This document shows positions 1-21,844 of a DNA stretch of 21,844 bases, piece after piece (the stretch's first letter is position 1; the number at the start of each line of letters is the position of its first letter). Below the pieces are notes generated by a model. That model did no database searches. It was not told where the DNA came from and saw only the letters and a program-made list of their open reading frames with translations. The translations under genes were made by a program, and so were the position numbers. Source of the DNA: a virus; the IMG/VR virus record IMGVR_UViG_3300017743_000159, positions 1-21,844 of that record, one strand, 5' to 3'.

Positions 1-3000
1 AGCATCCTCTGCGGAATCATTGTTTATTTTATTTAAAACAAGTGAATGATCTCTGTCTGTTTGTTTCTCAGCACTGTTCCATGCAAAGTTCATCAAGTCA
101 CGCTCCTGCTGCCACAACTCATTTAGACCTTGCACAGTCAAAGCATTAGCTGCCATAACCTCTGACATATTTGCTTCATTAAGAGCAGCAGTATTAGCTG
201 TAGCTACACTCTGTCTCCATACGGTAGTAGCTTGTGCAACTACAAGTTCATTCTGTGCATTAAACATGTCACGTTGGTTATCAAGCTCAGCTTGGAACTT
301 AGCCATAGTGTTTTCTTCACCAGCGTTAAACTGCTCCATAGCATTAGATTGTGCTGTATTAAACTGCTGTACCTGTGTAGACATACCCTCAAAGAACTGG
401 TTGACTTGGTTAATACTCTCAGCGTTAAACTGCATCTGTGCATTCTCTGCAGCTTGATCACTAAATATACTCTGCACTAGAGACTGAGCTTCAAACATAA
501 CAGCCTGTTGCTCATTGTCTAAGTTAGCCATGTCCATCTCTAGGAAAGCAGACGCCTGTTGTGCTGCAGCCTGTTGTCTATTGTTAAGGTTAGCCATGTC
601 AAGCTGAGCCATAGACGCTACGTCAGCCATAAGCTTAGCTTGTTCGTTTGACAGGTTAGCTAAGTCTACTGTCTGTGCAAGCTGTGCATTCTGTAAAGCA
701 CGAGACTGTTCAGCAGTAAAGTTCATATTAGCTACTTCAGCAATACGCTCAGCACGTACAATGTTTGTCTGCTGTTTATTGCTAAGCTCTTGACCTTTCA
801 TTGCTGCTTCTATCTGAGCGTTAGCTAGTGCAGTCTGTTGACGGTTAGACATCTCTGACATATCAACTTGTAGCTTATTGCTCATGTTGAAGACAGCAGT
901 TTGTTGTTCGTTGTTTAACTCAATACCACGCTCAGCTACAACGTTAGATACATTAAACAATGCAGTCTGTTGTTTGTTATCTAAGACACGCCCTTCCATA
1001 GCTGCACGAGCTACAGCATCTTGGATAAACGCCTGTTGCTTCATGGTAGCGTCCTGCATCTCAGACTCAAACGCCTGTGTACTTTCTAGTACAGCCACCT
1101 GTTGCTCATTCGTCAACTCTTGGCCCATCATAGATGCTTGTACTTGTAAGTTAGATAGTGCAGTCTGCTGTGAGTTAGACAAGTTAGCCATCTCTACTTC
1201 TAAGTTCTGCGTAGATTTAAGCAATGTAGTTTGCTGTCTGTTTGTCAAGTTAATATCGTTTACTGCAGCATAACGTGCAGCATTAGATAGTGCAACGTTA
1301 GCACTGATACTTAGCTCTTGGCCTTGAAGTGCAGCCTTGAATTGTGCAGTGGCTAGTACAGCTTCCTGCTCATTAGATAAGTTCTTTAACTGTAAGTTAG
1401 CATTGTTCATAGAGTTCTGAATACGTACAGCTTGTTCATTAGACAAGTTAGCTAACTCAAAGTTCTGTGCTGCAGCAGCATTAGCTAGAGCTACAGCTTG
1501 CTCATTACGGACATTCTCCATATCCATTGCAGCAAAGGTAGATGCATCCTGCTGAGCTATAGGGATAGCACTCTCAAGTGTAGCTTGTATGATAGCTGCA
1601 GAAGCCATAGAGCTATTGCCTAAACCACGAGCACTCATGGCTGCATTAGCTTTACGTAAAGCACCAGCCGCCCATGCAGGTGTACCATCATCGAAGGAAG
1701 CCATAAGCTTCTCCATCTGGCCCTGTACAGTAGAGTTAGCGCCTACGTCACCCTTAACAGCTTTAGCTTGTAGCTGTTGACTAAACGTTGCAGTTGCAGC
1801 TTTAGCAATAGATGCCTCATTAAGAGCTTCAAGTGTTTTAGCTGCGACAATTACAGACTCTTCATTGATAATCTTATTTACATCTACTACTTCATCTGCA
1901 CCTACAGTAGTTTCTTCTGCTGTGACTTCAGGTACAAACTCAGACTTCTTCTCTTCTGCTGTAGCGTATTCGTCAAACTTAGCAGCTTCTTCTACTTTAG
2001 TTGCTTCTGTCTCAGCTACTTGTGTAGGTGGTAAATTGTAGTCTACTTCAGCTTCTGCTTTAGGAGTTTCAGTCTCAAACTTAGCTGGGTCAATCTCTTC
2101 AACTTCGCCCTCAAACTCAGCGGCTTCTGACTTTGTATATTCATTAAATAAAGCTGCAGTAGGTATCTCACCTGCATCTAGTTGCCTCTTCATCTCAGGG
2201 ATTTGACGTATAGTATCTAGAGTTACAGCATCTAAACCTAGCTGAGCTAACTCTTCAGAGTCCATCGTTTCAGCTTTCATCAAAGCCTGATCTGATGGTG
2301 TACCTGTAGCTGCAGCAAAAGTTTCTAATGCAGTCTTAACTTTAGGTTGTGATGTTACAGCCGTGTATGTCTCAGCACGATCAGCTACAGCGTCCTGCTC
2401 AATCTGAGCCTGTTGCCGTTCATAGTAATCAGCTATATCTTTTACAACACTTTCAGGTAATGGTGTAACTGCTGGAACAGCGTTTGGATAGGGCGGGTAT
2501 TTTCCACCAAGAAAAAACTCAGAATCATCTAAGCCTTGTACATAAGCCATAGCAGACTTAACAGCAGGATCATCTACTGCATCTGCAGCCTGTGCTTGCT
2601 TAACTAAGAGTGTAGCTGCAGTTACTACTTGACCAGTACCCTCATCAATAAGCTGATTGTCTTCTACCTTCAGGCCATACACTGTAGGCTGTGATAGTAC
2701 AGAGCTAGGGTTAGTTATAGCTTTACCTAGAGCCTCACTCGTAGAGGGGATCTCTGTAGTTTCAAACTGTTTCTGTTTAGTTGATACGTCAGCCTGTGTC
2801 TGCGTAGTTAAAAGTTCAGCATCCTCTACATCTTTAGTAAGTTGTTCATATGCATCAAACTCTTGTTGTTTTTCATCTGTAAATATAAAAGGATCGTCTT
2901 CTGCCTTTCTTTGTGTAAAGGCATTATACAGAGCCTGTATCTGATCTGGATTAGTTGCAGTACCATCTGGGTTCATTTCTAAACCACCAGAAAGTAAATT

Positions 3001-3600
3001 ATTTAAAATAGCTTTTGTAGATTGGTCTGCATTAATGTAATACTTTGCAGCATCAAAGTTATCTACATTTTCAACTGGTTGTTCTGCACCACTTAATGCT
3101 TTCTGTGCCTCTGTAAGTGTACCCATAGCATCACTGTAGGCTGTCTGTGCAGCGTCTAAGTCAGTAGAGGCTTGTGTAGTCTCAGGGGTAGGTGTGCCTG
3201 TCTTGAGTACTTGTGAACCTTCAGGTGGGTCTGGTTGATCTTCTGGTGGTTGAACGTCAGAGTCAGGTGGAGCAACACCATAATCTGGAAATACATCATC
3301 TGGGTTAATAGGCAAAGTTGTATATACTGGCTTATTCGCAATCTCTGGCTTAATTCTAGATACTTCCTTATAACCTTCAGGTGTTGTTGAACCACCCTCT
3401 TGCATACCCATACCAGCTAAAGGCCCACCCTCTACACGTTGCCTAGCTATGTCAGCATAACGGCCTATCTTAGATGCAGCAGCAGGGCTAGATGCTAAGA
3501 ATAGATCCATGTCATCCTTCTGCGCTGGGCCTGTGTATCCCATCTCACTAAGTAGTTGATGTGTTTGTTGGTTACTAAAACCTTTAAACTGTTTTGCCAT
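1..3600 (-). CDS. Giant repeat-rich putative virion protein (partial, C-terminus beyond left edge)
   Basis: The minus-strand frame starting with ATG at 3600 (MAKQFKGFSN) runs to position 1 without a stop, giving at least 1200 residues; I checked every in-frame triplet. Residues 1-120 hold a Gly/Pro-rich stretch with MQEGG (66-70). Residues about 120-500 are acidic and Gln/Ala-rich, then a very Glu-rich linker follows (about 500-580). Residues 698-1049 are sixteen gap-free 22-residue repeats of the type SNEQQTALxxAQxxAAxxGQEL. After a short link come six 11-residue units starting QFNA/KFQA/MFNA (about 1057-1122). This predicts a very long alpha-helical, hendecad-type rod. It starts 6 nt after the 155-aa gene, with only a weak ribosome site. 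No catalytic motif is seen. A structural or DNA-ejection role is inferred from position, size and repeats. The function is unknown. Confidence 0.85.
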   Translation of the reverse strand, partial: MAKQFKGFSNQQTHQLLSEMGYTGPAQKDDMDLFLASSPAAASKIGRYADIARQRVEGGPLAGMGMQEGGSTTPEGYKEVSRIKPEIANKPVYTTLPINPDDVFPDYGVAPPDSDVQPPEDQPDPPEGSQVLKTGTPTPETTQASTDLDAAQTAYSDAMGTLTEAQKALSGAEQPVENVDNFDAAKYYINADQSTKAILNNLLSGGLEMNPDGTATNPDQIQALYNAFTQRKAEDDPFIFTDEKQQEFDAYEQLTKDVEDAELLTTQTQADVSTKQKQFETTEIPSTSEALGKAITNPSSVLSQPTVYGLKVEDNQLIDEGTGQVVTAATLLVKQAQAADAVDDPAVKSAMAYVQGLDDSEFFLGGKYPPYPNAVPAVTPLPESVVKDIADYYERQQAQIEQDAVADRAETYTAVTSQPKVKTALETFAAATGTPSDQALMKAETMDSEELAQLGLDAVTLDTIRQIPEMKRQLDAGEIPTAALFNEYTKSEAAEFEGEVEEIDPAKFETETPKAEAEVDYNLPPTQVAETEATKVEEAAKFDEYATAEEKKSEFVPEVTAEETTVGADEVVDVNKIINEESVIVAAKTLEALNEASIAKAATATFSQQLQAKAVKGDVGANSTVQGQMEKLMASFDDGTPAWAAGALRKANAAMSARGLGNSSMASAAIIQATLESAIPIAQQDASTFAAMDMENVRNEQAVALANAAAAQNFELANLSNEQAVRIQNSMNNANLQLKNLSNEQEAVLATAQFKAALQGQELSISANVALSNAARYAAVNDINLTNRQQTTLLKSTQNLEVEMANLSNSQQTALSNLQVQASMMGQELTNEQQVAVLESTQAFESEMQDATMKQQAFIQDAVARAAMEGRVLDNKQQTALFNVSNVVAERGIELNNEQQTAVFNMSNKLQVDMSEMSNRQQTALANAQIEAAMKGQELSNKQQTNIVRAERIAEVANMNFTAEQSRALQNAQLAQTVDLANLSNEQAKLMADVASMAQLDMANLNNRQQAAAQQASAFLEMDMANLDNEQQAVMFEAQSLVQSIFSDQAAENAQMQFNAESINQVNQFFEGMSTQVQQFNTAQSNAMEQFNAGEENTMAKFQAELDNQRDMFNAQNELVVAQATTVWRQSVATANTAALNEANMSEVMAANALTVQGLNELWQQERDLMNFAWNSAEKQTDRDHSLVLNKINNDSAEDA
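235..432 (-). repeat. Six 11-codon repeats after the 22-mers
   Basis: Six consecutive 11-residue units begin QFNAESINQVN, QFFEGMSTQVQ, QFNTAQSNAME, QFNAGEENTMA, KFQAELDNQRD and MFNAQNELVVA. The 11-residue period is half of the 22-residue unit upstream, and is a known period for extended amphipathic or right-handed coiled-coil helices. Confidence 0.85.
454..1509 (-). repeat. 16 tandem 22-codon repeats (66-nt period)
   Basis: Inside the giant protein, 1056 nt encode exactly 16 x 22 residues with no indel. The most regular positions are an N-E/R/K-Q-Q core at residues 2-5, small residues in the middle, and N-L or E-L at the end of each unit (for example copies 6, 9, 10 and 11). DNA copies are diverged, so the array looks old and held by protein selection rather than recently amplified. 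Copy 4 has lost the NxQQ core. Confidence 0.9.
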
Positions 3601-4085: not shown

Positions 4086-4352
4086 CTATTGTTGTTCATT
4101 TGCCATCTTTTCTACTGATGATCTTATTGCTTTTATGTTTTCATCAATACGGGCAAGTGCTATTGCTTGACTTTGTACAGATGTTTCTAACCTGCCCATA
4201 CGTTCTTCTAGTGCTATGATATCTTCTCTGTTATCTTCAATGTCAGACATCATCATTGATACTGTCCATACGATAGCTGCCCCTTGAACAAGTAATCCAA
4301 AGATTAGTGTAATTGGTACAGACTTGCTCAAGTGCCAGTTATCGTTGTCCAT
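4086..4352 (-). CDS. Single-pass membrane protein with coiled coil, holin-like candidate
   Basis: 88 residues. A short N-terminal segment (MDNDNWHLSKS) is followed by one transmembrane helix at about residues 12-34, then a charged heptad-like helix (about 36-85) suited to coiled-coil oligomerisation. Its start overlaps the stop of the 89-aa gene by one base (TAATG), so translation is probably coupled. Small one-pass proteins of this design in phage late regions are often annotated as holins or membrane-anchored accessory proteins. No endolysin is visible nearby, so the holin reading is only a suggestion. Confidence 0.8.
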   Translation of the reverse strand: MDNDNWHLSKSVPITLIFGLLVQGAAIVWTVSMMMSDIEDNREDIIALEERMGRLETSVQSQAIALARIDENIKAIRSSVEKMANEQQ

Positions 4353-4621
4353 TATCCTGTGAACGCATCTGCCGCAGAGATAGCTGCATCAATGTCAGTA
4401 AAGCTTTCTGAACCCCAATCGGTCAAAGCTTTCTGATGCTTTAAGTAGCCTACACTACGTTCCACACGTTCTTTCTTTTCGTCATGCGTTAGGTCATGCC
4501 CAAAGTCTTCACTTGTGGCACCTGCACCTTTATTGTGTGTAGCAATAACACTGTTGATAGTGCTTGCTCCACCTAGACAAGCTGCGTGTGCTTGTGCGAT
4601 TTCTTCTGCTGTACGGCTCAT
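4352..4621 (-). CDS. 89-aa conserved-type small phage protein, unknown function
   Basis: This mainly helical small soluble protein has no signal or membrane segment. Its C-terminal half carries RSVGYLKHQKALTDWGSES followed by FTDIDAAI. From memory this resembles short proteins with an 'N..HL..ML.KTDW..ED.T...' pattern found near tail-fibre genes of marine phages, but I cannot name a family. The start overlaps the stop of the oxygenase-like gene as ATGA (4618-4621). An AGGAG about 7 nt upstream lies inside that gene's 3' end, so the start is well supported and translation is coupled. Confidence 0.8.
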   Translation of the reverse strand: MSRTAEEIAQAHAACLGGASTINSVIATHNKGAGATSEDFGHDLTHDEKKERVERSVGYLKHQKALTDWGSESFTDIDAAISAADAFTG

Positions 4622-5256
4622 TGTAGTTCTCCTATATTAATGTTGCCTGAGATTGATATACGTTCCCCATCGTTTTCATAGAATGGGAACACCTGATGAA
4701 GCATTGCTGATGGGAACATAACCATATATCCTTCTGCTTCTTTTTCCATGTTATATGCAAAGGTACTTACTCTGCCTAACGTATTGGTGTAGCTAAATGC
4801 AAAGTTACTAATGTGGTTATCTGCATTTGATTCTACAGCAATAGGAAGCTTACGTTGCTCTTCATAGGATGTAGGTATCTGCATCCAGATTACAAAGCTG
4901 TACACACCAGCATGATCATGCGGTGGATTAAACTCATGTTGCCTTTGAAAGTTTACCCATAGACTTTCTAGGTAGAACTGCTCACCTTCCTTCATAGCCA
5001 TTCTGTATGGTGGGCCATAGGCTTCCATGTGCTGCTTCATAAAGGCTGGTATTGTTTCACCTGTAAAGTCTTTAAGCAGTTCAGAGTTACGATCTAACTT
5101 AATAGAAGAACTGATGTTACCTGCTAGTTCAGGCTTAGAGTCCACAGGGTTATCCCTTGCTTCATCTATGGCAGACCATATATTAGTGATCGTATCTGTT
5201 GGTAGCTGTCCTTCAACTACACCTATGTTTGGAAAGTTTCGTGCTAGTAGTTCCAT
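4618..5256 (-). CDS. 2OG-Fe(II) oxygenase-like protein (prolyl-4-hydroxylase-like fold)
   Basis: 212 residues. The core carries SLWVNFQRQHEFNPPHDHAG then a hydrophobic strand (VYSFVIWMQIP), the signature of the phage/bacterial putative 2OG-Fe(II) oxygenases. Candidate iron ligands are in the H113-D114-H115 cluster plus H187 (FPSAMLHQVFPF), and R199 (GERISISGNI) is placed to bind the 2-oxoglutarate carboxylate. Expected chemistry is 2-oxoglutarate-, O2- and Fe(II)-dependent hydroxylation; the substrate is unknown. It begins 2 nt after the tail-fibre stop with AAGGG 5 nt before the ATG, and overlaps the next gene by 4 nt. That makes virion or fibre modification a reasonable guess. The family call is from recognised motifs and has not been searched. 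Confidence 0.85.
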   Translation of the reverse strand: MELLARNFPNIGVVEGQLPTDTITNIWSAIDEARDNPVDSKPELAGNISSSIKLDRNSELLKDFTGETIPAFMKQHMEAYGPPYRMAMKEGEQFYLESLWVNFQRQHEFNPPHDHAGVYSFVIWMQIPTSYEEQRKLPIAVESNADNHISNFAFSYTNTLGRVSTFAYNMEKEAEGYMVMFPSAMLHQVFPFYENDGERISISGNINIGELQ

Positions 5257-5258
5257 GT

Positions 5259-8200
5259 TTACCCTTCTAATGTGGCTATGCGAGCTTCAAGTGCATCGTT
5301 CTTTGCGGATAGTTCTTGGATTGCTTTGACTAAGATTGGTACAAGTGATGATTCTCCAACTCTTTGCCTTCCGTCCATTGCATCAGCAGACCACATTTTA
5401 AACCCATCTTTTATTTCTGAGTGAGCATCTATGGCAGTTTTTACTTCTTGTGCTATAAAACCATGATTAGTTTCACCGTTACTACACATAACCCTTGTTT
5501 CAGAACCTTCCACAAAAGAACGATGATCTGATGGAATGTCTTTTTCTTTTTTCCATTTAAAAGTTACAGGACGTAAATCCTTTATAAAAGCTAAACCTGC
5601 TGTAGATGTTGTAATCTCTTCTTTATATCGTTCATCAGATGGAGCAGAAATAGAAGTAGCACCTGCAAGTATTAAACTATCTGAAGTTCCAATACCAAAG
5701 GTAAATGAATTGTTTTGATTACCAACAACACCTTTACCGAAAACATTTTGACCTGTGGCATTTTCTGCTGAAACACCTGTTTCTCTTCCAACCAAAGTAT
5801 TATTATCACCTGTAGCTAAATCAGTGCCTTGTCTACCTGCATCATGCCCTATAACTGTATTACCGTCACCTGACGTTATATTTACTCCTGCTGCTACACC
5901 CATTACGGTGTTTAGTGTACCTGTAATGGCTGTTCCAGCCTGTTTACCTACTGCTGTATTTTCACTTCCACAGTTACCACTAAGAGCTAAGTAACCAACG
6001 GCTGTGTTACTACCACCATCATCAGTACCATCTCCTGCTAAAGCACCAATAAATGTATTTTGTATGCCTGTTGTAACTGCTACTCCTGAGTTGTATCCTA
6101 CTGCTACATTGTAATTATTTGCATGATGGTTTTGTACTTTTAAAGCTCCTGCTCCTATTGCAACATTGTACCATCCAGTATCTTCACCACTTAATGCTTC
6201 ATACCCTAGTGCTACGCTACTACCACCAGTAGTTAAAGCATCACCTGCTAGACCACCGATTAGTGTATTTTGTACGCCTGTTGTGACTGCATAACCTGCA
6301 AAATGACCAACCGCTGTATTAAAGGTTTCAGTAGCAGTTGTAAAATTTTGAGTAGCTAAAGTTTGATGACCAATTGCAGTAGATTTACTACCTAATGTAT
6401 CTGCTCCTAAAGCAGCCTTACCAACTGCCACGTTTTCATCAGCATCAGTAAGAGCATCACCAGCAGATGCTCCTATTAAAGTATTATTAATACCTGTTGT
6501 GACTGCTATACCTGCTTGCCATCCTAGCGCAGTATTATACGCTAAAGCACCCGCATTTAATGTTTGTAAAGTTTGGTATCCAACGGCTGTATTTCTTCCG
6601 TGACCATCTTCAGTTTTTAAGGAATCAACACCAATTGCTACATTTTCTTGTGTATTGCTACTTGCTGCACCTAAAGAACCATATCCAACCGCAACATTAA
6701 GTCCATCACCAGAAGTTATACCATCACCTGCTAGTCCACCTATAAGAGTGTTTTTTAGAGATGTTGTGACTGATACTCCTGCTCTGTACCCAACAGCTAC
6801 ATTGTACACATCTGTGGCTGTAGTGAAGTTTTGAGTAACCAATGCTCCTTGACCAATGGCTACACTATATTTACCTTTTGTATCTGCTCCTAAAGAGAAA
6901 GCACCAAGAGCAGTATTAGCTAAACCTGTAGTTAAAGCATCGCCAGCTTGTCCACCAATTAAGGTGTTTTCTACACCTGTTGTGACTGATGCTCCCGCAT
7001 TTCTACCAATAGCAATATTGTAGCTATTTGTGGCAGTAGTGAAATTTTGAACAGCCAATGCACTTGTACCAATAGCAACAGAACTGCTGCCTAAAGTATC
7101 GGAACTTAAAGCTACATAACCAATAGCGATATTATTATCAGCATCTGTTAAAGCATCACCTGCAAGTCCACCAACAAGTGTGTTTTGTATACCTGTTGTG
7201 ACTGCTACACCTGCGGCATGTCCAACCGCTGTATTATAGCTATCTGTAGCTGTAGTGAAGTTTTGACTAAATAAAGCTCCATTACCTATAGCAGTGGTTT
7301 TGCTTCCAAGGGTGTCTGTGGTTAGTGCGTATGCTCCAAGTGCTGTGTTGTTACCTGCACTAGTTAAAGCATCACCTGCTAGTCCTCCAATGAGTGTGTT
7401 TTCTATACCTGTTGTGACTTCTGCTCCTGCATTATGTCCAACTGCTGTATTGTAAGTATTTGTAGCTGTAGTAAAATTTTGTGCTTGAAGGCTATTCATA
7501 CCAATAGCAACGGACCTACTGCCTAGAGTATCAGCAGTTAACGCTAAATAACCAATTGCTACATTCATATCAGCATCAGTGAGTGCATCACCAGCTAAAG
7601 AACCAACAAGGGTGTTTTGTACACCTGTTGTGACATCATTACCTGCGTTATGTCCTACGGCTGTGTTGTGAGAATCAGTAGCTGTTGTGAAGTTCTGAGC
7701 TTGTAAAGCAGCAGTTCCTACTGCAACTGATTTACTACCTAGTGTATCTGCACCTAAAGAACCTAACCCAATAGCTACGTTAAAGTCTGCATCTGTAAGA
7801 GCATCACCTGCTAGACCACCTATAATAGTATTTGATATTCCTGTTGTGACTGCTGAACCTGCAGAATCCCCTACAGCTACATTATAAGTATTAGTGGCTG
7901 TGGTGAAGTTTTGTGTAGCTAACGCACGTTTACCTATTGCAACAGACCTGCTACCTAATGTGTCTGAACTTAAAGCATTTGCACCCAATATAGTATTATT
8001 TGTACCTGTTGTGACTAAATGTCCTGCTTCATAACCAACAGCAACATTAAAAGTATCTGTGGCAGTAGTAAAGTTTTGAGTTTCTAGAGCAGAAAAACCT
8101 AATGCCGTGGATTTACTACCTAATGTATCTCCACTTAAAGCAGCATAACCTAATGCAACATTAAAGTCAGCATCTGTTAAAACGTCACCAGCTAGACCAC

Positions 8201-10466
8201 CAATAAGAGTATTTTGTATACCTGTTGTAATTGCTCTACCTGCTATATGACCAACTGCTGTATTATAAACATCTGTAGCTGTAGTGAAGTTTTGTGTTTC
8301 TAAAGCCGCTGTTCCAATAGCAACACTTCTACTACCTAGAGTATCTGAGGTTAAAGCTAAGTACCCTAGTGCAACATCACTGGCACCAGTAGTAATAGCA
8401 TCTCCTGCTAGGCCACCTATTAAGGTATTGAGTGTGCCTGTTGTGACTGATATCCCTGCTTCAAAGCCAACTGCTGTATTGTAAGTATCTGTAGCTGTAG
8501 TGAAGTTTTGATTAGTTAAAACGTTGTAGCCTATAGCTGTACTTCTACTACCCCTTACATCTTGTGATAATGCATTATTTCCAACAGCGGTATTAAAATC
8601 AGCATCAGTTAAAGCGTCACCAGTTGATACACCTATGGCAACGTTTCTTACCCCTGTATCAACAGATTTACCTGCATCAAAACCCAAAAATGTATTTTGA
8701 TCACCAGTAGTAATAGCAGTACCAGCTCCATCACCTACAACCGTATTATAGTTACCGCCAGAAGCAATGCTGTTACCTGCGTTTACACCTGCACGAAAGT
8801 TAGATGTACCTGCTGTGGCTGTTTGTAGTGTACCGCCTGTGGATGCTATTATGAGGTTACCGCTGCTGTCGATGCGCATACGTTCAGAAGCAGCCGTTCC
8901 AAATTGCATAAACTGACTACCGTGGTTGAAAGATATAAAACCATCCTCATCTGCACCACTATCTTTAAATGCTATGGTGCTGCCGTTAGAAGCACCTGAG
9001 AAAATGGTAATACCTTGGTTTCCACTCCCAGAACCAACCACTAATTCGTCTGCATTTGTTGAACCAGTAGAAGAAGATTGACCAATTAACACCCGACCAG
9101 CACTGTCGATGCGCATACGTTCTGTGTTGGCTGTACTAAAAGCTAACTGATTGTCAGCGGGTCTGTATATTGCAGCGGCGGTTGAAGGGGTAGAAATTGA
9201 ACCACCAAAATGTATGTAGTTATCAAACTTTGCAGTTCCGTTGACGTGTAACGGATCAGACGGAGAACTCGTACCAATCCCAACCCGATCATTGCCACCA
9301 TCAACAAACAGCATATTAGCGTTGCCATTAGACTCAACACGGAAGTCTATGTCTATACTTTCTTCATTTATAACAACTTCAGCTTGAGTGCTATCATGTG
9401 TCATATTAATAAAACTTCTATCTGCACCAGCAGTAATAATATTAAATGACATACGGCCATCTTCAGTGCCGTTGCTTGCGTCTTTTATTTGATTGACGAT
9501 TTGACTATACACTGTAGAATTATCTGCATCATCCTCACCTAGAAACTGTATTTTACCTAATTGATCACTATCAGCAGGGCTACTAGAGTTACGGTTCATT
9601 ACAAACAAAGGACCAATAGATGCATCAGCATCAGTAGAAACAAGAGTAAGTTGTGCAGTATTATCAGCAGTTGTAATAGTAGCACCAGAAGACGATGTAA
9701 TAGCACCATCAACTTGTAGAGTAGATGCCATATCAACAGCACCATCTATGTCCACCACATCTAGGTTGGTTGTACCGTCTACGTCTATGTCACCAGAGAT
9801 GTCTAATGAAGCAAAGACAGATGTACCTGTTCCAGTGATAGTACCAGATACGTCTAGGTTAGCATTAACATCTACTAATGTAGCATTAAGTTCAATCTCA
9901 TCTGTAGCATTAATATCTAGTACAGTTGCGCTGGGGGCATTGATGAACTGTGAAGCATCATTGAACTGAATAGCCATTGTACTGTTAAGCAGTAGTCCTG
10001 TGTCAGCTACGTGTGTCAGTGTAACATCTGTATCTGCACCAAAGCCTAGTACGGCAGCATCACTGTCTAGCGTAAGGTCATCACCAACTAACAGATCATT
10101 GTTAATATCAACTGCACCAGTTACAGCTAGAGTACCTGTAATGCTTGCGTTTTCGTCAACATCAAGAGTATCTATATGGGCTGTACCATCAAGGAACAGG
10201 TCTTTATACTCTAAGGAAGATGTACCCAGATCAACCGTATTATCAGTCTTAGGACGAAGTACAGAAGCTGTAGCTACAACATCTTGGCTAGGGCCAATCG
10301 TTTCAATAGGAGCACCCTCACCAGCAGTACCATCGTGGGTATGACCTGATGAATTGTTAAATGCAGATTGTACTGCGTCAAACTCACCATCTAAGTCAGA
10401 CGCATTGATAATGTTTCCGTCAGCAATATTGTTTGCTGTATCGTTACGTGTGTAACCTGTTCCCAT
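5259..10466 (-). CDS. Tail fibre / adhesin with YadA-like head repeats and C-terminal S74 chaperone peptidase
   Basis: 1735 residues. The N-terminus (YTRNDTANNIADGNIINASD, then GHTHDGT) is a recurrent phage fibre attachment-type domain. Residues about 80-240 are repetitive beta/coiled segments (TGTLAVTGAVDINNDL and similar). Next come stalk motifs with ERMRIDS (about 445 and 525). Residues about 555-1580 are many NTAVGxxAGxxxTTG-type units, as in trimeric autotransporter (YadA-like) heads. The last 126 residues, from SDERYKEEI at S1610, match the intramolecular chaperone/auto-protease S74 domain, ending in a coiled coil (LEARIATLEG). Known S74 proteins trimerise and then cleave just before that Ser. 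A strong ribosome site (AGGAAGAGAG) precedes the ATG. It lies directly after the nozzle-like gene. Role: host receptor binding. Confidence 0.93.
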   Translation of the reverse strand: MGTGYTRNDTANNIADGNIINASDLDGEFDAVQSAFNNSSGHTHDGTAGEGAPIETIGPSQDVVATASVLRPKTDNTVDLGTSSLEYKDLFLDGTAHIDTLDVDENASITGTLAVTGAVDINNDLLVGDDLTLDSDAAVLGFGADTDVTLTHVADTGLLLNSTMAIQFNDASQFINAPSATVLDINATDEIELNATLVDVNANLDVSGTITGTGTSVFASLDISGDIDVDGTTNLDVVDIDGAVDMASTLQVDGAITSSSGATITTADNTAQLTLVSTDADASIGPLFVMNRNSSSPADSDQLGKIQFLGEDDADNSTVYSQIVNQIKDASNGTEDGRMSFNIITAGADRSFINMTHDSTQAEVVINEESIDIDFRVESNGNANMLFVDGGNDRVGIGTSSPSDPLHVNGTAKFDNYIHFGGSISTPSTAAAIYRPADNQLAFSTANTERMRIDSAGRVLIGQSSSTGSTNADELVVGSGSGNQGITIFSGASNGSTIAFKDSGADEDGFISFNHGSQFMQFGTAASERMRIDSSGNLIIASTGGTLQTATAGTSNFRAGVNAGNSIASGGNYNTVVGDGAGTAITTGDQNTFLGFDAGKSVDTGVRNVAIGVSTGDALTDADFNTAVGNNALSQDVRGSRSTAIGYNVLTNQNFTTATDTYNTAVGFEAGISVTTGTLNTLIGGLAGDAITTGASDVALGYLALTSDTLGSRSVAIGTAALETQNFTTATDVYNTAVGHIAGRAITTGIQNTLIGGLAGDVLTDADFNVALGYAALSGDTLGSKSTALGFSALETQNFTTATDTFNVAVGYEAGHLVTTGTNNTILGANALSSDTLGSRSVAIGKRALATQNFTTATNTYNVAVGDSAGSAVTTGISNTIIGGLAGDALTDADFNVAIGLGSLGADTLGSKSVAVGTAALQAQNFTTATDSHNTAVGHNAGNDVTTGVQNTLVGSLAGDALTDADMNVAIGYLALTADTLGSRSVAIGMNSLQAQNFTTATNTYNTAVGHNAGAEVTTGIENTLIGGLAGDALTSAGNNTALGAYALTTDTLGSKTTAIGNGALFSQNFTTATDSYNTAVGHAAGVAVTTGIQNTLVGGLAGDALTDADNNIAIGYVALSSDTLGSSSVAIGTSALAVQNFTTATNSYNIAIGRNAGASVTTGVENTLIGGQAGDALTTGLANTALGAFSLGADTKGKYSVAIGQGALVTQNFTTATDVYNVAVGYRAGVSVTTSLKNTLIGGLAGDGITSGDGLNVAVGYGSLGAASSNTQENVAIGVDSLKTEDGHGRNTAVGYQTLQTLNAGALAYNTALGWQAGIAVTTGINNTLIGASAGDALTDADENVAVGKAALGADTLGSKSTAIGHQTLATQNFTTATETFNTAVGHFAGYAVTTGVQNTLIGGLAGDALTTGGSSVALGYEALSGEDTGWYNVAIGAGALKVQNHHANNYNVAVGYNSGVAVTTGIQNTFIGALAGDGTDDGGSNTAVGYLALSGNCGSENTAVGKQAGTAITGTLNTVMGVAAGVNITSGDGNTVIGHDAGRQGTDLATGDNNTLVGRETGVSAENATGQNVFGKGVVGNQNNSFTFGIGTSDSLILAGATSISAPSDERYKEEITTSTAGLAFIKDLRPVTFKWKKEKDIPSDHRSFVEGSETRVMCSNGETNHGFIAQEVKTAIDAHSEIKDGFKMWSADAMDGRQRVGESSLVPILVKAIQELSAKNDALEARIATLEG
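5262..5639 (-). other. S74 intramolecular chaperone domain with predicted self-cleavage site
   Basis: This is the C-terminal 126 codons of the fibre. The SD.R.K core at S1610-D1611-E-R1613-Y-K1615 marks the expected cleavage point just before S1610 (codon 5637-5639). LRPVTFKWK, NHGFIAQEV and LVPILVKAIQEL are the usual conserved blocks of the domain. The assignment rests on motif recognition. Confidence 0.85.
6330..8510 (-). repeat. 216-nt (72-codon) tandem repeats in the tail fibre
   Basis: The heptapeptide QNFTTAT occurs ten times, at 8490-8510, 8274-8294, 8058-8078, 7893-7913, 7677-7697, 7461-7481, 7245-7265, 7029-7049, 6813-6833 and 6330-6350. Spacings are 216 nt except one of 165 (216 minus 51) and one of 483 (two units plus 51). 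Each 72-residue unit is 21+17+17+17 residues. Degenerate units without QNFTTAT lie near 6110-6170 and 6540-6620. Confidence 0.9.
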
Positions 10467-10483: not shown

Positions 10484-12463
10484 TTATTGCCTGTCGTGCG
10501 CTGCAAACTCTAGTGTAGCTGCGTCTAGTGAGAACGGTGGATCTGTTCCCTCAAAGATATATTGTATTGATATAACAAAACCTGAACCTACTACTTGATT
10601 ATTAAATACAGATATTAGTTTACCACCATAACTACCTGTACCAAAAGATGATACACCATAAAATGCAACAGTAGCTGTTGTATTAGCTATAGGTACAGAT
10701 GTAGGCTGTATCTTATTAGGTTCATCAAAATCAAACTTTAATGTTGCGTTACCATCTACTGAACCTTCAGGGTCAATGTATGTAGACAGTTTATACATTG
10801 TCTTTCTTATACGTGGATCACTCATAGCAAAGAAAGGTGTACTAAATGAAGATAGTATATTTGAACCATCAAAGCTATTACCGCTCTCCATGCGATAAAC
10901 GTAACCGTCACTATTAGCAAATATAATTACTTCATCTGCATCGTTAGTAGAGAATACACTATCCGCTATATAAGAACGTATACCCCTAGTTTCAGCCCAA
11001 GCCATACCTTGAGAGGTCTGATCAGCAAACTGCGTACCAAGTATACCTTGTGATGAATCCTCACTAATAGCTGCAGCATAACCAAATAATCTGTACTGGT
11101 TTTTCTTTCTAATTACACACGAGCTAAACTTAGTATTAGAACTAAACAGTTGATTTGTTTCACCTTGAATAGGTCTTGACGCAACAGCTAAACCAAAGTC
11201 ACCAATACGATCAGTTGCACTTAATAGTCTAATACCGTCAGGCCCAACAAATGCAATGTCACCACCTACCTCTTGAATAGTATCTTCTTTAATACAACCA
11301 ATGTCTAGTGATATAGGTTGCAACTGAAAGTCAGCTATTGTATTACCTACAAGCCTATGTATTTTACCACGGCTAAAGATAACTAACTGTTCACGAAAAA
11401 CTATTAAACCTGTTATGTCATCTGTGACATTTATAACACCCGCACCATTAGCTGCAGTGAAGTCATTATCTGTAAATGGTGCAGTAAAACTTAATGTACT
11501 ACCTTTACCAAAGAATAATTGGCTTTTAAAGGATACTACATGATCAGCACCATCTACATCACTTGGTGCAGCAGTAAGTTCTGTAAAAGTTGTACCGTCA
11601 TACTTGTAAGGTTTATTAGTACCGTCCACTACCATAACCTCAGGTGTACCGCTAAAGTTATATCTAGTAAATCTGTTTACACCGCCCAGCGCCCTCTCTG
11701 TAGCTAAGAACGTAATAGCTGCATTATTAGCAGGGCTAGAAGCTAGGGCAGGGTTAATTGCTAGAGTAGAACCACCAGAGCTTACTGTAGCATCTGACGT
11801 AACCGTGTAAACTTTCTCAATACCTGCTACAGTAAATGTATCACCTGCCTGTGGTGTACCTGTAAGTCCATCTACTGCTAGACTTGTACCAGTTTGACTT
11901 GCACCGTTTACTAGTACAGTTCCATATGAAGGTACGTTTATTTGTGTCCAACCTGATCCGCTAGACTTAAATATATCACCGTTACGATAAGCTACGGCAT
12001 TCTGATTAAAGTAGTACAAACCCTCTATTAAATCAGATGTATTAGTAAAAGTAATTGCAGCCTTGTCAGCAGGTGAACTAGCTAATGATGTAGTAAGTGT
12101 AATAGCTGCTGAGTTATTAGCTGCACTAAATGTTACACCTGATGTAGCAATAGTGTAGGTTCCTGTTACACCAGCTATCGTTAGTGTGTCACCATCCTGT
12201 GGCGTAGTATTAATATTAGCTATGTTTAGCGTAGTACCAGACTGACCACTACCTTGTACTTTAGGCATACCATATGGTGGTACAGTAGTAGAGTCAAATT
12301 TATTAAACCCCTCTATACGTCTATAGCCACCCTCAATAGATGGCTCAAAGTTACGCAAAGTTCGAGCAGAGCCAGGAGAGTTAATACCTTGCTGTAAAGG
12401 GCTTATGTTTGTTATTAAGCCACCCTTGAACTCAACAGGGTATGTCTGCCACTGTGTAGGCAT
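10484..12463 (-). CDS. Tail nozzle / stabilisation-like protein (P22 gp10-type role)
   Basis: 659 residues. The N-terminus (FKGGLITNISPLQQGINSPG, then NFEPSIEGGYRRIEGF) is characteristic of podovirus 'stabilisation' or tail-hub/nozzle proteins that close the tail. The body is beta-rich, with propeller-like strands such as LIVFREQLVIFSRGKIHRL and DIAFVGPDGIRLLS. Residues about 62-139 and 176-252 are two copies of one beta domain (QSGTTL.., PQDGDTLTIAGV, ASSPADKAAITF against QTGTSL.., PQAGDTFTVAGI, ASSPANNAAITF). It lies 2 nt after the 240-aa adaptor and is followed at 17 nt by the fibre, which fits a tube-nozzle-fibre order. The ribosome site is weak (GAG), so translation may be coupled. The family call is by recognition. 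Confidence 0.8.
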   Translation of the reverse strand: MPTQWQTYPVEFKGGLITNISPLQQGINSPGSARTLRNFEPSIEGGYRRIEGFNKFDSTTVPPYGMPKVQGSGQSGTTLNIANINTTPQDGDTLTIAGVTGTYTIATSGVTFSAANNSAAITLTTSLASSPADKAAITFTNTSDLIEGLYYFNQNAVAYRNGDIFKSSGSGWTQINVPSYGTVLVNGASQTGTSLAVDGLTGTPQAGDTFTVAGIEKVYTVTSDATVSSGGSTLAINPALASSPANNAAITFLATERALGGVNRFTRYNFSGTPEVMVVDGTNKPYKYDGTTFTELTAAPSDVDGADHVVSFKSQLFFGKGSTLSFTAPFTDNDFTAANGAGVINVTDDITGLIVFREQLVIFSRGKIHRLVGNTIADFQLQPISLDIGCIKEDTIQEVGGDIAFVGPDGIRLLSATDRIGDFGLAVASRPIQGETNQLFSSNTKFSSCVIRKKNQYRLFGYAAAISEDSSQGILGTQFADQTSQGMAWAETRGIRSYIADSVFSTNDADEVIIFANSDGYVYRMESGNSFDGSNILSSFSTPFFAMSDPRIRKTMYKLSTYIDPEGSVDGNATLKFDFDEPNKIQPTSVPIANTTATVAFYGVSSFGTGSYGGKLISVFNNQVVGSGFVISIQYIFEGTDPPFSLDAATLEFAAHDRQ

Positions 12464-12465
12464 AC

Positions 12466-13188
12466 TTAGCTAACTCTCGATGCATTTGATTTACGGGCAA
12501 TGTGGTAGATACGTGTATCCCTCAAGTAGTCATAACGATTAATATAAAGTGTACGCATGTTCTTTATACCAGCTTCAAACTTCTGTTGTTGTATATTTGC
12601 ATCTTGAGTATTACCTCTAAATAAATATGCGTAATACATAGATCCATCTACAATAACATAACGGAACTGTTCAGGTACACTAGGTACATCAGTTGCATTA
12701 ATTAAATCTACAGGCAATCTATAATACTCATACACTAATTCGTAAGCTTTATCTGGGGGTGGTACTACACCATACTCCATATTAGGTGTACGGAATACAC
12801 TCTTAGGCAAACCTCTTATAGTATCACTAGTATTATACTCATTATCAATGAACTTGTCAAGGTATTCTTCGTAAGAAAGTATTTTTAATTTTTCTGTTTG
12901 ATTATTAAATGTAGAGTTACGCTTAATGCGAAAGGTATCCATGTCAGGTGTTTTCATATCACTAGGTAAAGCGTACCGTGTTTCACCTGCAGTAAGTGTA
13001 TCTTCTTGTTCTACGTGGTTAAAGGGCCACTCAAACTCATGCTGATTAACAAAACGTATAGCTGCATTCACACTGTCTTTAGCTGCACTGTAAAAACCTA
13101 CAGCGTTACCAAAGTTAGAACTTGTAAGCTCAACTTCGTTTAAACGCTTGTTGACATCATTTACTAAACCTAAAAAGTCATATGCCAT
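12466..13188 (-). CDS. Head-to-tail adaptor / tail-tube-like protein (SU10/P22 gp4-type)
   Basis: 240 residues. A helical N-terminus (FLGLVNDVNKRLNEVELTSS) and a W-rich segment (NQHEFEWPFNHVEQEDTLTA) are followed by GETRYALPSDMKTPDMDTFR and an aromatic YELVYEYYRLP segment. The C-terminal helix carries QQQKFEAGIKNM. This pattern, placed just before the nozzle-like gene, matches adaptor proteins that sit beneath the portal in short-tailed phages. It starts 1 nt after the stop of the 115-aa gene, with AAGGG about 10 nt before the ATG. An alternative reading is a tail tubular protein A-like role. The function is inferred from family resemblance and gene order. Confidence 0.75.
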   Translation of the reverse strand: MAYDFLGLVNDVNKRLNEVELTSSNFGNAVGFYSAAKDSVNAAIRFVNQHEFEWPFNHVEQEDTLTAGETRYALPSDMKTPDMDTFRIKRNSTFNNQTEKLKILSYEEYLDKFIDNEYNTSDTIRGLPKSVFRTPNMEYGVVPPPDKAYELVYEYYRLPVDLINATDVPSVPEQFRYVIVDGSMYYAYLFRGNTQDANIQQQKFEAGIKNMRTLYINRYDYLRDTRIYHIARKSNASRVS

Positions 13189-17751: not shown

Positions 17752-20535
17752 TTAACCTGCTGCTGCAGATATTACAGCATCAAACTCTCGTTCTTCATCT
17801 GTATCTTTAGGTTTTATAGCACCTGAAACTATGTCACGTATTCTTTGTTCTTGTCTTTGTTTATCTATTCTGTCACCTGAAGCACCACCACCTAAAGCTT
17901 GATCTCTTTCATATTTTTCAGTAGTAGTAAGTGTAGGTTCTGGTGAGGCAGCCGCTGCAGCAGATTCAGTAAATTTAGGAGTTAAACTACCTGAAGGTGT
18001 ATATGCAGAAACGTCAAATTCACCTTTGTTAGTTCTAGTATCTTGTGTACCGCCAAGAGAAGATCCTGTTGTAGATGCATACCAATCAGAGAAAGACATA
18101 TCATCTGTTACTACAGACTCAGGTGTAGTAGTACTAGCTGCTCCTCCACCCCAAGTAGATGGGTCAAATAAATTAAAGCTACTGCTTGATACAGGCATAG
18201 ACATAGCTACATCTTCACCTGCTGTCATTATTATTGTTTGTGTGTCATCGTCAGAGTTATCATATAATGTTTGTATTGTACCCTTTTGTGCATCAGAATA
18301 TTTTTTTTGTCCTGCTGTATATGTGAAGTCTGTTTGACCTGTTATATTTAAGCCTCCCGCAGTTAGAAACATAGATTCAGCTAGATCTTTTTTGTTAGTT
18401 GCATTACCTTCTAGTAAAGAATTTACAGAAAAACTATATACAGACTCTGCTTGTTTTTGCTTAGCTTTTTTAGCTAAGGCAGTCATACCTAAAGCACCTG
18501 CAGGACCGCCTATAACACCGCCTACTAAGCTCAATACACCAGACTCTAATGCAGATAAAGATAGGGGATCTTTACCTTTACTTAGATTATCCATCATACT
18601 TTTATTGTATGCAGTAAAATCTTCTGGCTCCCATTCATTCGTAGGTTTATTCCAGTACCCATCTCTGGTTTCAACAACTGGACCTTTATCATCATCATCA
18701 TCACGCTCACGTTGTACTTGCTGTTGCTCTTCTACAACATTCTGTGATACTTCACGAAAGCCAGCAGGTATACGGCTCATAGGTCTACCATTAAAGTAGT
18801 ATATTATAATCTGTTGACCTGTCTCAGGATTAGTAAAAGTTTTAGACTCAAAGCCCATAAAAGGTGAACCTGTACCACCGTAACGTCCATAGCCACCACC
18901 TACAGGTTTAGGTACAGTTATACCTTCACCCGGTACAGCACCACCCTCTTGCATGTTTATAGGTTTATCTCTGTCACCTTTTTCATCATCCATTACTTCT
19001 AGTTCATCATCTCTGAAGTAAGATTCTTCACCATCCCTGATACGTTTCCAACCTTCTTCTGCAGACTTTTGTAGCTCTTCAAAAAACTCTGTACCAAAGT
19101 AACGTCTAGTTGCAGCATTAATCATAAACTCATTAGGACTAGCATTAATAGGTACATCATCACGTACCTCTTCTGGTTTGGCTCCAAGAGGTGCAGTGTT
19201 GCCACTTACAGGATCTTTAGTCTCACTCATAATGAGATCCATTTCTGTTTGTATGGGTTCGTTATTATTAGATATAGATCCACCAACAGCCATATCCGTA
19301 CCAGAACTAGACGTTAATAAATAATCTTGTTGGCCTGTATACATATCTTCTTCCCCTATTAATCCACCTTGAGCAAATTTTTTACCAAGTATATTTTCTA
19401 CTTCATCTCTGTATGGTAAATCTTTTACCCCTGCAGCTTCTTGTGCAGATTTTGCTTCTTCTCTACTCAATACTCGTGATACTTTCATATCACCACCAAC
19501 TACCCATGTATCTCCATCTGCTTGACCATCTACGTATGAGTAGCTACCACCTTTAGGTACTTTATCATTAATGTCAGTACGGCCTCTTTCTTTCATATAA
19601 GTAAGTAGCTCATCACTTGTATCGTCTGCCATTTCTACTTCTGCCCAGACTTGATCTTCAGCCCTACGTTTTACGTAGTATTGATCACCACGGGTTCTTA
19701 TAGCTTTTGGATTGATACCTGCATTAACAAGTTGTTCTGCTTCTTTTTTAGTTATTTTTAAATCCTGTGGACCTAAATGTTCTGCTACAGGATTCATACT
19801 AGCATGCCATCCAGGTCTAGCAGCAACAGCAGTCACTTTACCATAGGGTGCATCTTTAGTACGTTTTGTTTTTTCTGTAATGTACCCTGAATCAATAAGT
19901 TTTTTTCTTGTTTCTTCATCTGGTATATTTATAGAATCTCCAGTTTTTTTTGTTTTTTCACCCTTTTTACGTTTAGCACCCTTAGTAGGTACGTAAAATC
20001 CTTCTTTACCTGCTTTTGTAGTTCCTTTAAAAGCTACATCAGGAAAGTCTGCTTCTAAAAAAGACCCTTGAGGTACTTCATCTGCAGCATTTACAAATAA
20101 AGGATATAGCTTGTCATCTGATTGTACAAATAATTTATATGCCTTACGAGTTTTTTTAAAAGGTTCATCTACAACAGAAGATGAAGAAGGTTTTAATTTA
20201 ATATTTCCACCTAAACTACCTAAAGCATTAGGATCAACTTCAATACGCTTACCTACATCTAAAGCTTTCTTGGCACCTGATCTTATAGCACTGGCTGCAG
20301 CATCACCTAATCCTGGAATAAGTCCTATCATTGCTGCACCGCCCAGCGCACCAACTAAAATATAGTTAGGGTCATCTTTCTGTAACTCATCGTAAACTTC
20401 TTTAGCTGCCATAGCATCACCAATGATAGGTGTAGCTGAAGCAACAAAGGTAGCAGCATCTTCTAATGTAATATTATCCACACGCTCTGCATAACGCCCC
20501 TCAGGGTCTTGTCTTCTTTTAGGATTTAGGGCCAT
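17752..20535 (-). CDS. Large multi-domain virion protein between portal and scaffold
   Basis: 927 residues from ATG 20535, which has AGGG 9 nt upstream. An in-frame ATG at 20544 has its ribosome site too close. Residues about 56-82 are a Gly/Ala-rich hydrophobic segment (ILVGALGGAAMIGLIPGLGD). Residues about 130-359 match a domain I recognise from phage polyvalent proteins (KAYKLFV..DDKLYPLFVNA, ARPGWHASMN, DQVWAEVE, DTWVVGGDMKVSRVLS). A block at about 459-495 (RDDVPINASPNEFMINAATR) recurs in marine-phage virion proteins. A second Gly-zipper-like segment lies at about 661-687 (VLSLVGGVIGGPAGALGMTA). The C-terminus is low-complexity and acidic. Its start overlaps the 65-aa gene by 17 nt. An ejection or portal-associated internal protein is plausible. 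The function is unproven. Confidence 0.85.
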   Translation of the reverse strand: MALNPKRRQDPEGRYAERVDNITLEDAATFVASATPIIGDAMAAKEVYDELQKDDPNYILVGALGGAAMIGLIPGLGDAAASAIRSGAKKALDVGKRIEVDPNALGSLGGNIKLKPSSSSVVDEPFKKTRKAYKLFVQSDDKLYPLFVNAADEVPQGSFLEADFPDVAFKGTTKAGKEGFYVPTKGAKRKKGEKTKKTGDSINIPDEETRKKLIDSGYITEKTKRTKDAPYGKVTAVAARPGWHASMNPVAEHLGPQDLKITKKEAEQLVNAGINPKAIRTRGDQYYVKRRAEDQVWAEVEMADDTSDELLTYMKERGRTDINDKVPKGGSYSYVDGQADGDTWVVGGDMKVSRVLSREEAKSAQEAAGVKDLPYRDEVENILGKKFAQGGLIGEEDMYTGQQDYLLTSSSGTDMAVGGSISNNNEPIQTEMDLIMSETKDPVSGNTAPLGAKPEEVRDDVPINASPNEFMINAATRRYFGTEFFEELQKSAEEGWKRIRDGEESYFRDDELEVMDDEKGDRDKPINMQEGGAVPGEGITVPKPVGGGYGRYGGTGSPFMGFESKTFTNPETGQQIIIYYFNGRPMSRIPAGFREVSQNVVEEQQQVQRERDDDDDKGPVVETRDGYWNKPTNEWEPEDFTAYNKSMMDNLSKGKDPLSLSALESGVLSLVGGVIGGPAGALGMTALAKKAKQKQAESVYSFSVNSLLEGNATNKKDLAESMFLTAGGLNITGQTDFTYTAGQKKYSDAQKGTIQTLYDNSDDDTQTIIMTAGEDVAMSMPVSSSSFNLFDPSTWGGGAASTTTPESVVTDDMSFSDWYASTTGSSLGGTQDTRTNKGEFDVSAYTPSGSLTPKFTESAAAAASPEPTLTTTEKYERDQALGGGASGDRIDKQRQEQRIRDIVSGAIKPKDTDEEREFDAVISAAAG

Positions 20536-20716
20536 TAATTTCATCCCTTAAATAGGTTAATCTACGTAGAGCAGCTATCTCACCTTGAGCACGATATATG
20601 TCTTCCATAGACACTGCCTGTTCTAACTTGCGCTGGGCAGTGTCAATCTTTTTGTTTAGTACATCAAGGAAGCCATCCCATAGGGGCTTATCGTTTACGA
20701 GTTTCTTTACTATCAT
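20519..20716 (-). CDS. 65-aa helical protein after the portal
   Basis: Almost wholly helical and charged (WDGFLDVLNKKIDTAQRKLE, then MEDIYRAQGEIAALRRLTYLRDEINGP). Its ATG shares one base with the portal stop (TAATG), so translation is probably coupled to the portal. Small helical proteins in this position are common in short-tailed phages and are usually unassigned. They may act in portal or procapsid assembly. I do not recognise a named family. Confidence 0.8.
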   Translation of the reverse strand: MIVKKLVNDKPLWDGFLDVLNKKIDTAQRKLEQAVSMEDIYRAQGEIAALRRLTYLRDEINGPKS

Positions 20717-21844
20717 TATGTACCAGTAAACCCTTGCTCACCAGGAGTTGGTGCTGTTCCTGTACCAATGTTACCACCACCTGCACCTGTAGTGTCTTGT
20801 ACGCCTACACCAGCTTGCTCTGGCCCAGCGCCCGGACTAGGTGGTGGGGGTGGACCTTGAGGTGCTCCCTCTGCTCCCTCAGGTGGGGGTGGGGGCTGTG
20901 TAAACTTCTTAAGTATCTCAGCCTGTATAGCTGCATCACTCAGAGAGTTAGTAACCTTGTCTGGGTCTAGATCCATTGACTTAGCTATCTCACGAATGAT
21001 GTAGTCACTCTTAACGAATGGCATCAGTGCTGGGTTAGATGCTACACCCATAAACTGCATCAGACGTTGTGAGCGTACCTCATTAGCCATCAAGCTTTCT
21101 GTGCCAGATGCCTTAACCTCTAAGTCACCCTTGATGTCTGTATCAAAGTCAAACTGCATATTAAATGAAAAGAATGCTTTACCTATTGGACCAATGAGGT
21201 AATCATCCACGTTTTTAACAACATTTCGTATGCTGCCATTAGCTGCAGACATAAGCATAGAGATGCCAGAAGCAGTTCGCCCCACTCCACTGACACCTGT
21301 TTGACCATGTGCGAAACTTGGAAAGCCTGTACTTTCATCTGCTAAAACCCTAGCCTTATCAAAGAGTTGCATGTTCTCGCCAGCTACATTAGGGAACTTA
21401 GTGCCAAAGATGCCTTGTCCTGGTGCACCCCCCTGTCTGCGAAACACCTTGCCAGGGTACACACTTAAGTCCTGCCCCGGCACCAAGTTTGTCTCATCAA
21501 CTTCAATGATAAGATTACCAGAAAGTGCAGCATTATCAATAGCCATACGCATAAAGCCATTCATTAAGGTCTGCGTATCGTCCATATTCTCAGCAATACC
21601 TACACCAAAGAAGCTGTACGGGTTAAGCTCATAGGGTACAGCATAGTAAGGAATACGTGCTGGCTTAAATGGGTTAAGAACTAAACGTAATACTTTACCG
21701 TTACAAACCCATGCATTCACACTAACCTGCTCAGAGTTTTTTAACTCCTTAGGGATAGTTACACCATTCTCAGCTAGGATGTCTGTATCTACATAACCCC
21801 AGAACTCTAGTACTTCATAACGGTAGGGGCTAGAACTATACTGG
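20716..21844 (-). CDS. Portal protein (C-terminal part; N-terminus beyond right edge)
   Basis: The frame is open from the right edge (QYSSSPYRYEVLEFWGYVDT) to TAA at 20716-20718, so about 375 residues are visible. The GTG at 21720 is internal, not the start. Typical podovirus portal segments are RIPYYAVPYELNPYSFFGVG, IAENMDDTQTLMNGFMRMAI, TGVSGVGRTASGISMLMSAA and a wing/stem-like helical region after it. The last 65 or so residues are a Pro/Gly-rich disordered tail (PPPPPEGAEGAP, GPPPPPSPGAGPEQAG). The portal forms the dodecameric DNA gate at the head vertex. Terminase genes are expected upstream, outside the window. Confidence 0.9.
   Translation of the reverse strand, partial: QYSSSPYRYEVLEFWGYVDTDILAENGVTIPKELKNSEQVSVNAWVCNGKVLRLVLNPFKPARIPYYAVPYELNPYSFFGVGIAENMDDTQTLMNGFMRMAIDNAALSGNLIIEVDETNLVPGQDLSVYPGKVFRRQGGAPGQGIFGTKFPNVAGENMQLFDKARVLADESTGFPSFAHGQTGVSGVGRTASGISMLMSAANGSIRNVVKNVDDYLIGPIGKAFFSFNMQFDFDTDIKGDLEVKASGTESLMANEVRSQRLMQFMGVASNPALMPFVKSDYIIREIAKSMDLDPDKVTNSLSDAAIQAEILKKFTQPPPPPEGAEGAPQGPPPPPSPGAGPEQAGVGVQDTTGAGGGNIGTGTAPTPGEQGFTGT

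Follow-up and report, generated by a model that had tools for sequence, protein, structure and literature searches.

The stretch of viral DNA analysed here (the window, 21,844 nucleotides, from a 21.8 kb IMG/VR virus record) encodes a protein with a long array of 22- and 11-residue units. It belongs to an uncharacterised virion-module family of HMO-2011-like short-tailed phages whose arrays differ in length by whole multiples of 11 residues only, in most cases multiples of 22 and frequently of 110. The family is real, unusually regular and undescribed; as for its mechanism, which we infer from sequence and from analogy with known systems, our best guess is an internal, probably ejected, conduit or ruler, to which we give a probability of about 0.45.

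The repeat protein gene occupies positions 1-3600 of the window (minus strand, like all of its parts) and comprises 1200 residues there; the C-terminal 20 residues lie beyond the window end, and the full-length protein has 1220 residues in L002, a relative 99% identical to the window. Residues 1-639 (1684-3600) form the N-terminal region (5.6% proline), which includes a linker rich in proline and glycine and varies widely in length among relatives, and are followed by a conserved cap (residues 640-686, 1543-1683; TPAWAAGALRKANAAMSARGLGNSSMASAA...PIAQQDA), predicted to be a helical hairpin with a GxSS turn. Motif periodicity delimits array 1, sixteen 22-residue units of two hendecads each (residues 697-1048, 457-1512), after which seven 11-residue units, mostly with x-F-N at their end, make up array 2 in the same register (residues 1049-1125, 226-456). 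Alignment of relatives defines a conserved C-terminal module (VWRQ...LWQQERDLM..., 1-225), and in L002 the protein ends in a hydrophobic tail (FLSAIVGAIWNS) that falls outside the window. This anatomy of variable N-terminal region, cap, two arrays and C-terminal module is common to the relatives, with the consensus WAAGA...ARGL..SSM...PIAQxDA for the cap and WRR...LWQ..RD for the C-terminal module. Motifs of the type M-x-x-G-G (MAKGG, MARGG, MQEGG) recur in the linkers of the N-terminal regions of the family and also in a 930-residue protein of the window (17752-20544); they could be cleavage or binding sites.

The sixteen units without length variation and the subsequent array of half the period, as given in a preliminary description of this DNA, were borne out, with the array boundary one residue earlier than had been placed. 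That description had called the repeats exact, which holds for their length (no indel over the 16 units) but not for their sequence, the mean pairwise identity of the units being 28%. Identity at a lag of 22 residues was found at 95 of 330 positions (shuffled mean 31, maximum 51 in 5000 shuffles), and an L/S-N-x-Q-Q motif recurs at residues 719+22n. Four units (3, 6, 8 and 11, thus spaced 3-2-3; 787-1380) are special in carrying glycine at position 20 (G760, G826, G870, and G936).

No match to the repeat protein was found in Pfam, PHROG, NCBIfam or PDB, nor to solved structures at E ≤ 0.001, and Foldseek returned weak matches to helical proteins only; within these family and structure libraries no homologue was detectable among ejection proteins, tape measures or proteins of solved structure. 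A full-text literature search did not retrieve 22-residue phage repeats, no virion proteomics covering the protein was found, and term searches of two HMO-2011-group papers, PMC9038755 included, turned up no reference to it. The family is nevertheless abundant in viromes, with at least 500 confirmed relatives from one scan; a scan of cellular genomes gave six MAG contigs with relatives, which are probably phage. One homologue (L024, MW202701.1, 3930-6521) was deposited under the product name 'huntingtin', surely a misannotation.

Relatives came from annotated phages and from seven scans, six of them viral and one of genomes, and spacing counts were taken from the 388 genes (337 distinct cores) carrying all three anchors, with search patterns that left the spacing length free. 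The cap-to-mid spacing took 21 values between 65 and 769 residues, all of them 10 modulo 11 (337/337 cores) and 21 modulo 22 in 316 cores (94%), whereas the N-terminal length was flat modulo 11, the start of the cap being uniformly distributed. The mid-to-Trp spacing, which reports on array 2, took six values, all 9 modulo 11. Were the lengths independent, the chance of such modulo-11 agreement would be about 11^-25, a figure that serves only as a guide because the proteins are kin by descent. Indels of non-multiples of 11, which would have spoken against the continuous 11-residue register first proposed for the two arrays, were absent from all 337 cores. Together with the scarcity of proline described next, this quantisation speaks for a hendecad helical rod whose length can be adjusted.

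Composition agreed with a continuous register. Proline was nearly absent from the arrays (2 among the 65,201 residues of array 1 and none among the 28,698 of array 2, or 2 in 93,899 in total) as compared to 5-5.6% in the cap and N-terminal region. Successive 11-mers can each carry the LS(N/A) motif, and half-unit shifts are present inside the arrays, both of which are difficult to reconcile with one loop per unit. Each 22-residue unit could instead be a helix plus a turn, stacked into an α-solenoid whose role would be that of a compact platform or core inside the particle. The AlphaFold2 monomer of L002 shows such a fold, every unit having a loop between helices of 16-17 residues (pLDDT 53 for the whole model and about 70 in the array). 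Moreover, 85% of units have at position 2 one of the classic N-capping residues S/N/D/T, and together with Asn at position 22 this resembles helix caps. The model of a second relative, L068, keeps similar units helical, as a broken helix through array 1 (pLDDT about 50), and both models predict a long helix for array 2, with which array 1 shares its register; neither carries a single helix through array 1, and both are weak monomer models (pLDDT 53 and 63, built on 35 and 50 sequences for L002 and L068, respectively). In L068 the cap region is modelled as helices H49-64 and H71-121, and a break at MGMEFD matches the units with glycine at position 20, which are perhaps hinges. Considering the scarcity of proline, the consecutive 11-mer motifs, the half-unit shifts and the common register, we favour a continuous helix over loops per unit by roughly 3 to 1; the solenoid, for which no solved structure matched at the threshold given above, appears rather unlikely. 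The arrays would thus form one long hendecad α-helix (11 residues per 3 turns), perhaps with glycine hinges.

On an 11/3 wheel, hydrophobic residues lie at 0-65 and at 229 degrees, with Asn and Gln between them. The hydrophobicity power of array 1 peaked at 2.75 residues (11/4) and was lower at 11/3, where it was exceeded by one of about 2000 shuffles (maximum 90.7 vs. 77.8). We read the 11/4 peak as a reflection of this two-seam pattern, which cautions against the label of an ordinary amphipathic helix. Helices of the apolipoprotein or LEA type also show 11- and 22-residue periodicity, and a membrane-facing amphipathic helix had been suggested at the outset. That suggestion was not supported, since hydrophobic side chains are gathered in two distinct seams and the other positions are rich in Asn and Gln and weakly charged, unlike a lipid-binding amphipathic face; homology to those proteins was likewise lacking. 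Two seams are better suited to helices that pack side by side, the arrangement found in tubes, than to a simple dimer, so that copies of the helix may pack through them into an Asn/Gln-rich multi-helix rod or tube. Assignment of one polar face as the lumen was dropped, as the seam geometry fails to decide between faces.

The main rival to an internal conduit or ruler is a tail needle (or central fibre): three chains in a coiled coil would plug or extend the tail tip outside the head, in the manner of P22 gp26, over a length given by the repeats. The S74 chaperone domain is typical of trimeric fibres, and a Peptidase_S74 intramolecular chaperone was identified by Pfam on the CRP-3 and CRP-738 homologues; an S74-like C-terminal motif appeared on 24 of the 3-unit members (L031 and L032 among them; Pfam-confirmed in two). 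However, the motif was seen in this 3-unit subgroup only, most members being devoid of S74, while 146 of 333 members carry a strongly hydrophobic C-terminal stretch. The place of the repeat gene, which follows the genes for nozzle and fibre and precedes the last module, would suit a needle, whereas two separated seams instead of one stripe, and a cap with a GxSS hairpin behind a very long N-terminal linker, would not. P22 gp26 would share with the repeat protein an elongated helical rod, and its gene holds a neighbouring position, before the ejection genes, but it follows a heptad rather than an 11/22 pattern and no homology to it was found. We regard the needle as unlikely, though worth keeping in view.

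Array length varied considerably across the family. The cap and the C-terminal module lie 2 to 34 units apart in the 337 distinct relatives, while exactly 16 units occur in 35 distinct family members and the alignment of close relatives is gap-free over the array. The selected rod length put forward in the preliminary description is therefore supported in part: the close relatives keep a constant 16 units, but in the family at large the number of units switched repeatedly, mostly by five. With the copy number k taken as (d1-21)/22, d1 being the cap-to-mid spacing, the lineage with a shorter array 2 presented k values of mostly 6, 11, 16, 21, and 26, and that with a longer array 2 mostly 9, 14, 19, 24, 29, and 34; a further group had k = 3, and some members k = 5.5. 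Fitch counting gave 39 changes in k, 23 of them multiples of five units; these counts are approximate, the tree having been built from 198 columns with little array sequence (those of the cap, the final two units, and the anchors in the middle and at the C-terminus), and the step size of five was chosen after seeing the data.

Such changes could be neutral, recombination expanding and contracting the repeats under selection for the 11/22 register only, a reading compatible with the others. In arrays of 21, 24, 26, and 34 units, the likeness of units five apart exceeded that under permuted order, which is what duplication of blocks would leave behind, and k switches many times on the tree. In contrast, arrays of 16 and 29 units showed no lag-five likeness beyond 1000 permutations, those of 11 and 14 units had no elevated mean DNA identity at lag five, the close relatives of the window share one k despite their divergence, and two lineages hold one five-unit step from different bases. 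In the shorter-array-2 lineage, units marked by glycine at position 20 stand alternately 3 and 2 apart, in a pattern alike in 16-, 21-, and 26-unit arrays. Block duplication explains part of the five-unit pattern, and the step may reflect the manner of that duplication and not a functional ruler; a neutral length seems to us rather doubtful. A superhelical pitch as cause of the 110-residue step (about 16.5 nm of helix) did not fit by our own arithmetic. It is conceivable, if unlikely, that the protein is an adjustable helical ruler with discrete settings. As a hendecad protein that forms tubes or rods, it would have its reach matched, in steps of 16.5 nm (110 residues), to a dimension of the host envelope or the virion, and it may fold at its glycine hinges in the head and straighten on ejection.

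The nearest isolates to the window were Roseobacter CRP phages and Puniceispirillum phage HMO-2011, and the window derives from a phage related to HMO-2011, within a group of marine podoviruses; phages of this type are described as short-tailed (PMC9038755). The portal (partial; 20716-21843, minus strand) and the adaptor (12466-13188, minus strand) match SU10-type families, the latter pointing to the tail module of a short-tailed phage, and the coat, nozzle-position and scaffold-position genes match phage PHROGs. The nozzle role of the tail protein at 10484-12463 (minus strand; phrog_5107) is inferred from its place beside the adaptor. This protein contains two similar inserted segments matching distal-tail-protein domain profiles. 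Profile matching detected no tail tube family above chance in the window, where adaptor and nozzle genes are adjacent. A 1735-residue fibre (5259-10466, minus strand) ends S74-like at its C-terminus and has repeats of about 72 residues (NTAVG..AG..VTTG.NTLIGGLAGDALTDAD.NVAIG; DNA period 216/432) that recall those of YadA-type heads. Between the fibre and the repeat protein lies a 2OG-Fe(II) oxygenase (4618-5256, minus strand), of which HTVC033P has two genes in the corresponding region.

At loci with enough flank, the repeat gene stands just upstream of a constant set of genes, encoding about 180, 370-900, and 820-1900 residues, that end the virion module, with one or more optional genes in between. 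The cluster thus terminates in the largest virion gene, as in an ejection-cluster-like gene order, which makes presence in the virion and ejection of the repeat protein plausible. Homology of the neighbouring genes to T7 gp15/gp16 was not detectable, and, on comparison by eye, the number of repeats showed no relation to how long the following genes are. In L002, a peptidoglycan-binding protein directly follows the repeat gene (4160-5842), and an endolysin-like domain lies near the last gene (8511-9158). Contigs with long arrays (14-29 units) and enough sequence retain podovirus-type portal, adaptor or nozzle genes, so array length is not obviously tail length. Position in the virion module would also suit an internal packaging or core protein around the portal, measured by head or portal and not ejected. 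A straight array of 34 units, about 112 nm, would nevertheless exceed the interior of a podovirus head and would have to fold. DEV gp72 does ring the portal before ejection (PMC10925440), but it is itself an ejection protein, and we consider a core that stays behind improbable.

The guess of a conduit or ruler rests on the gene order beside the last and largest virion genes, on a likeness to tape measures in 11-residue repeats, and on the amide-rich composition. Siphophage tape measures (TP901-1, PMC5099701; 11/18-residue repeats) are long and helical, with 11-residue repeats marked by aromatic residues and a length set by repeat number, and are thought to be ejected as a channel; array 2, with its x-F-N every 11 residues, has both the periodicity and the aromatic marker. 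Unlike them, the phages considered here are short-tailed, judging from their relatives and gene content, with no tail tube gene seen; the main repeat is of 22 residues and rich in Asn and Gln, and no homology to a known tape-measure family was found in Pfam, PHROG or NCBIfam. The gp14-gp15-gp16 ejection cluster of T7 (reviewed in PMC8954989) and gp73-gp72-gp71 of DEV share helical character and a place in the gene order beside the last and largest genes of the virion module, podovirus ejection genes lying in a comparable place. Both belong to podoviruses of Gram-negative hosts, as, probably, do the repeat proteins. No similarity to these ejection proteins was detectable (PHROGs, NCBIfam, PDB), no repeat ladder is known in them, and gp14 is nearly constant at about 200 residues whereas the repeat protein varies widely. 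The DNA pilot protein H of phiX174, which forms a 170 Å tube for DNA with hendecads and an amide-lined lumen (PMC7354561), is similar in its hendecad helices and amide-rich composition, but virus and sequence are unrelated, H has a fixed length and mixes heptads with hendecads, and the tube proposed here is putative.

Most likely, the repeat protein would be carried within the virion and released with the DNA, serving as an envelope-spanning conduit or a length ruler as tape-measure and ejection proteins do, and repeat number would set the reach of the rod or conduit. With its strict quantisation by 11 residues, copy numbers that span a 17-fold range and the 110-residue step, this family makes a rare natural rod-length series. 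Through comparison of isolates with 2, 3, 6, and 9 units, what sets the length of a DNA-delivery conduit in short-tailed phages becomes testable.
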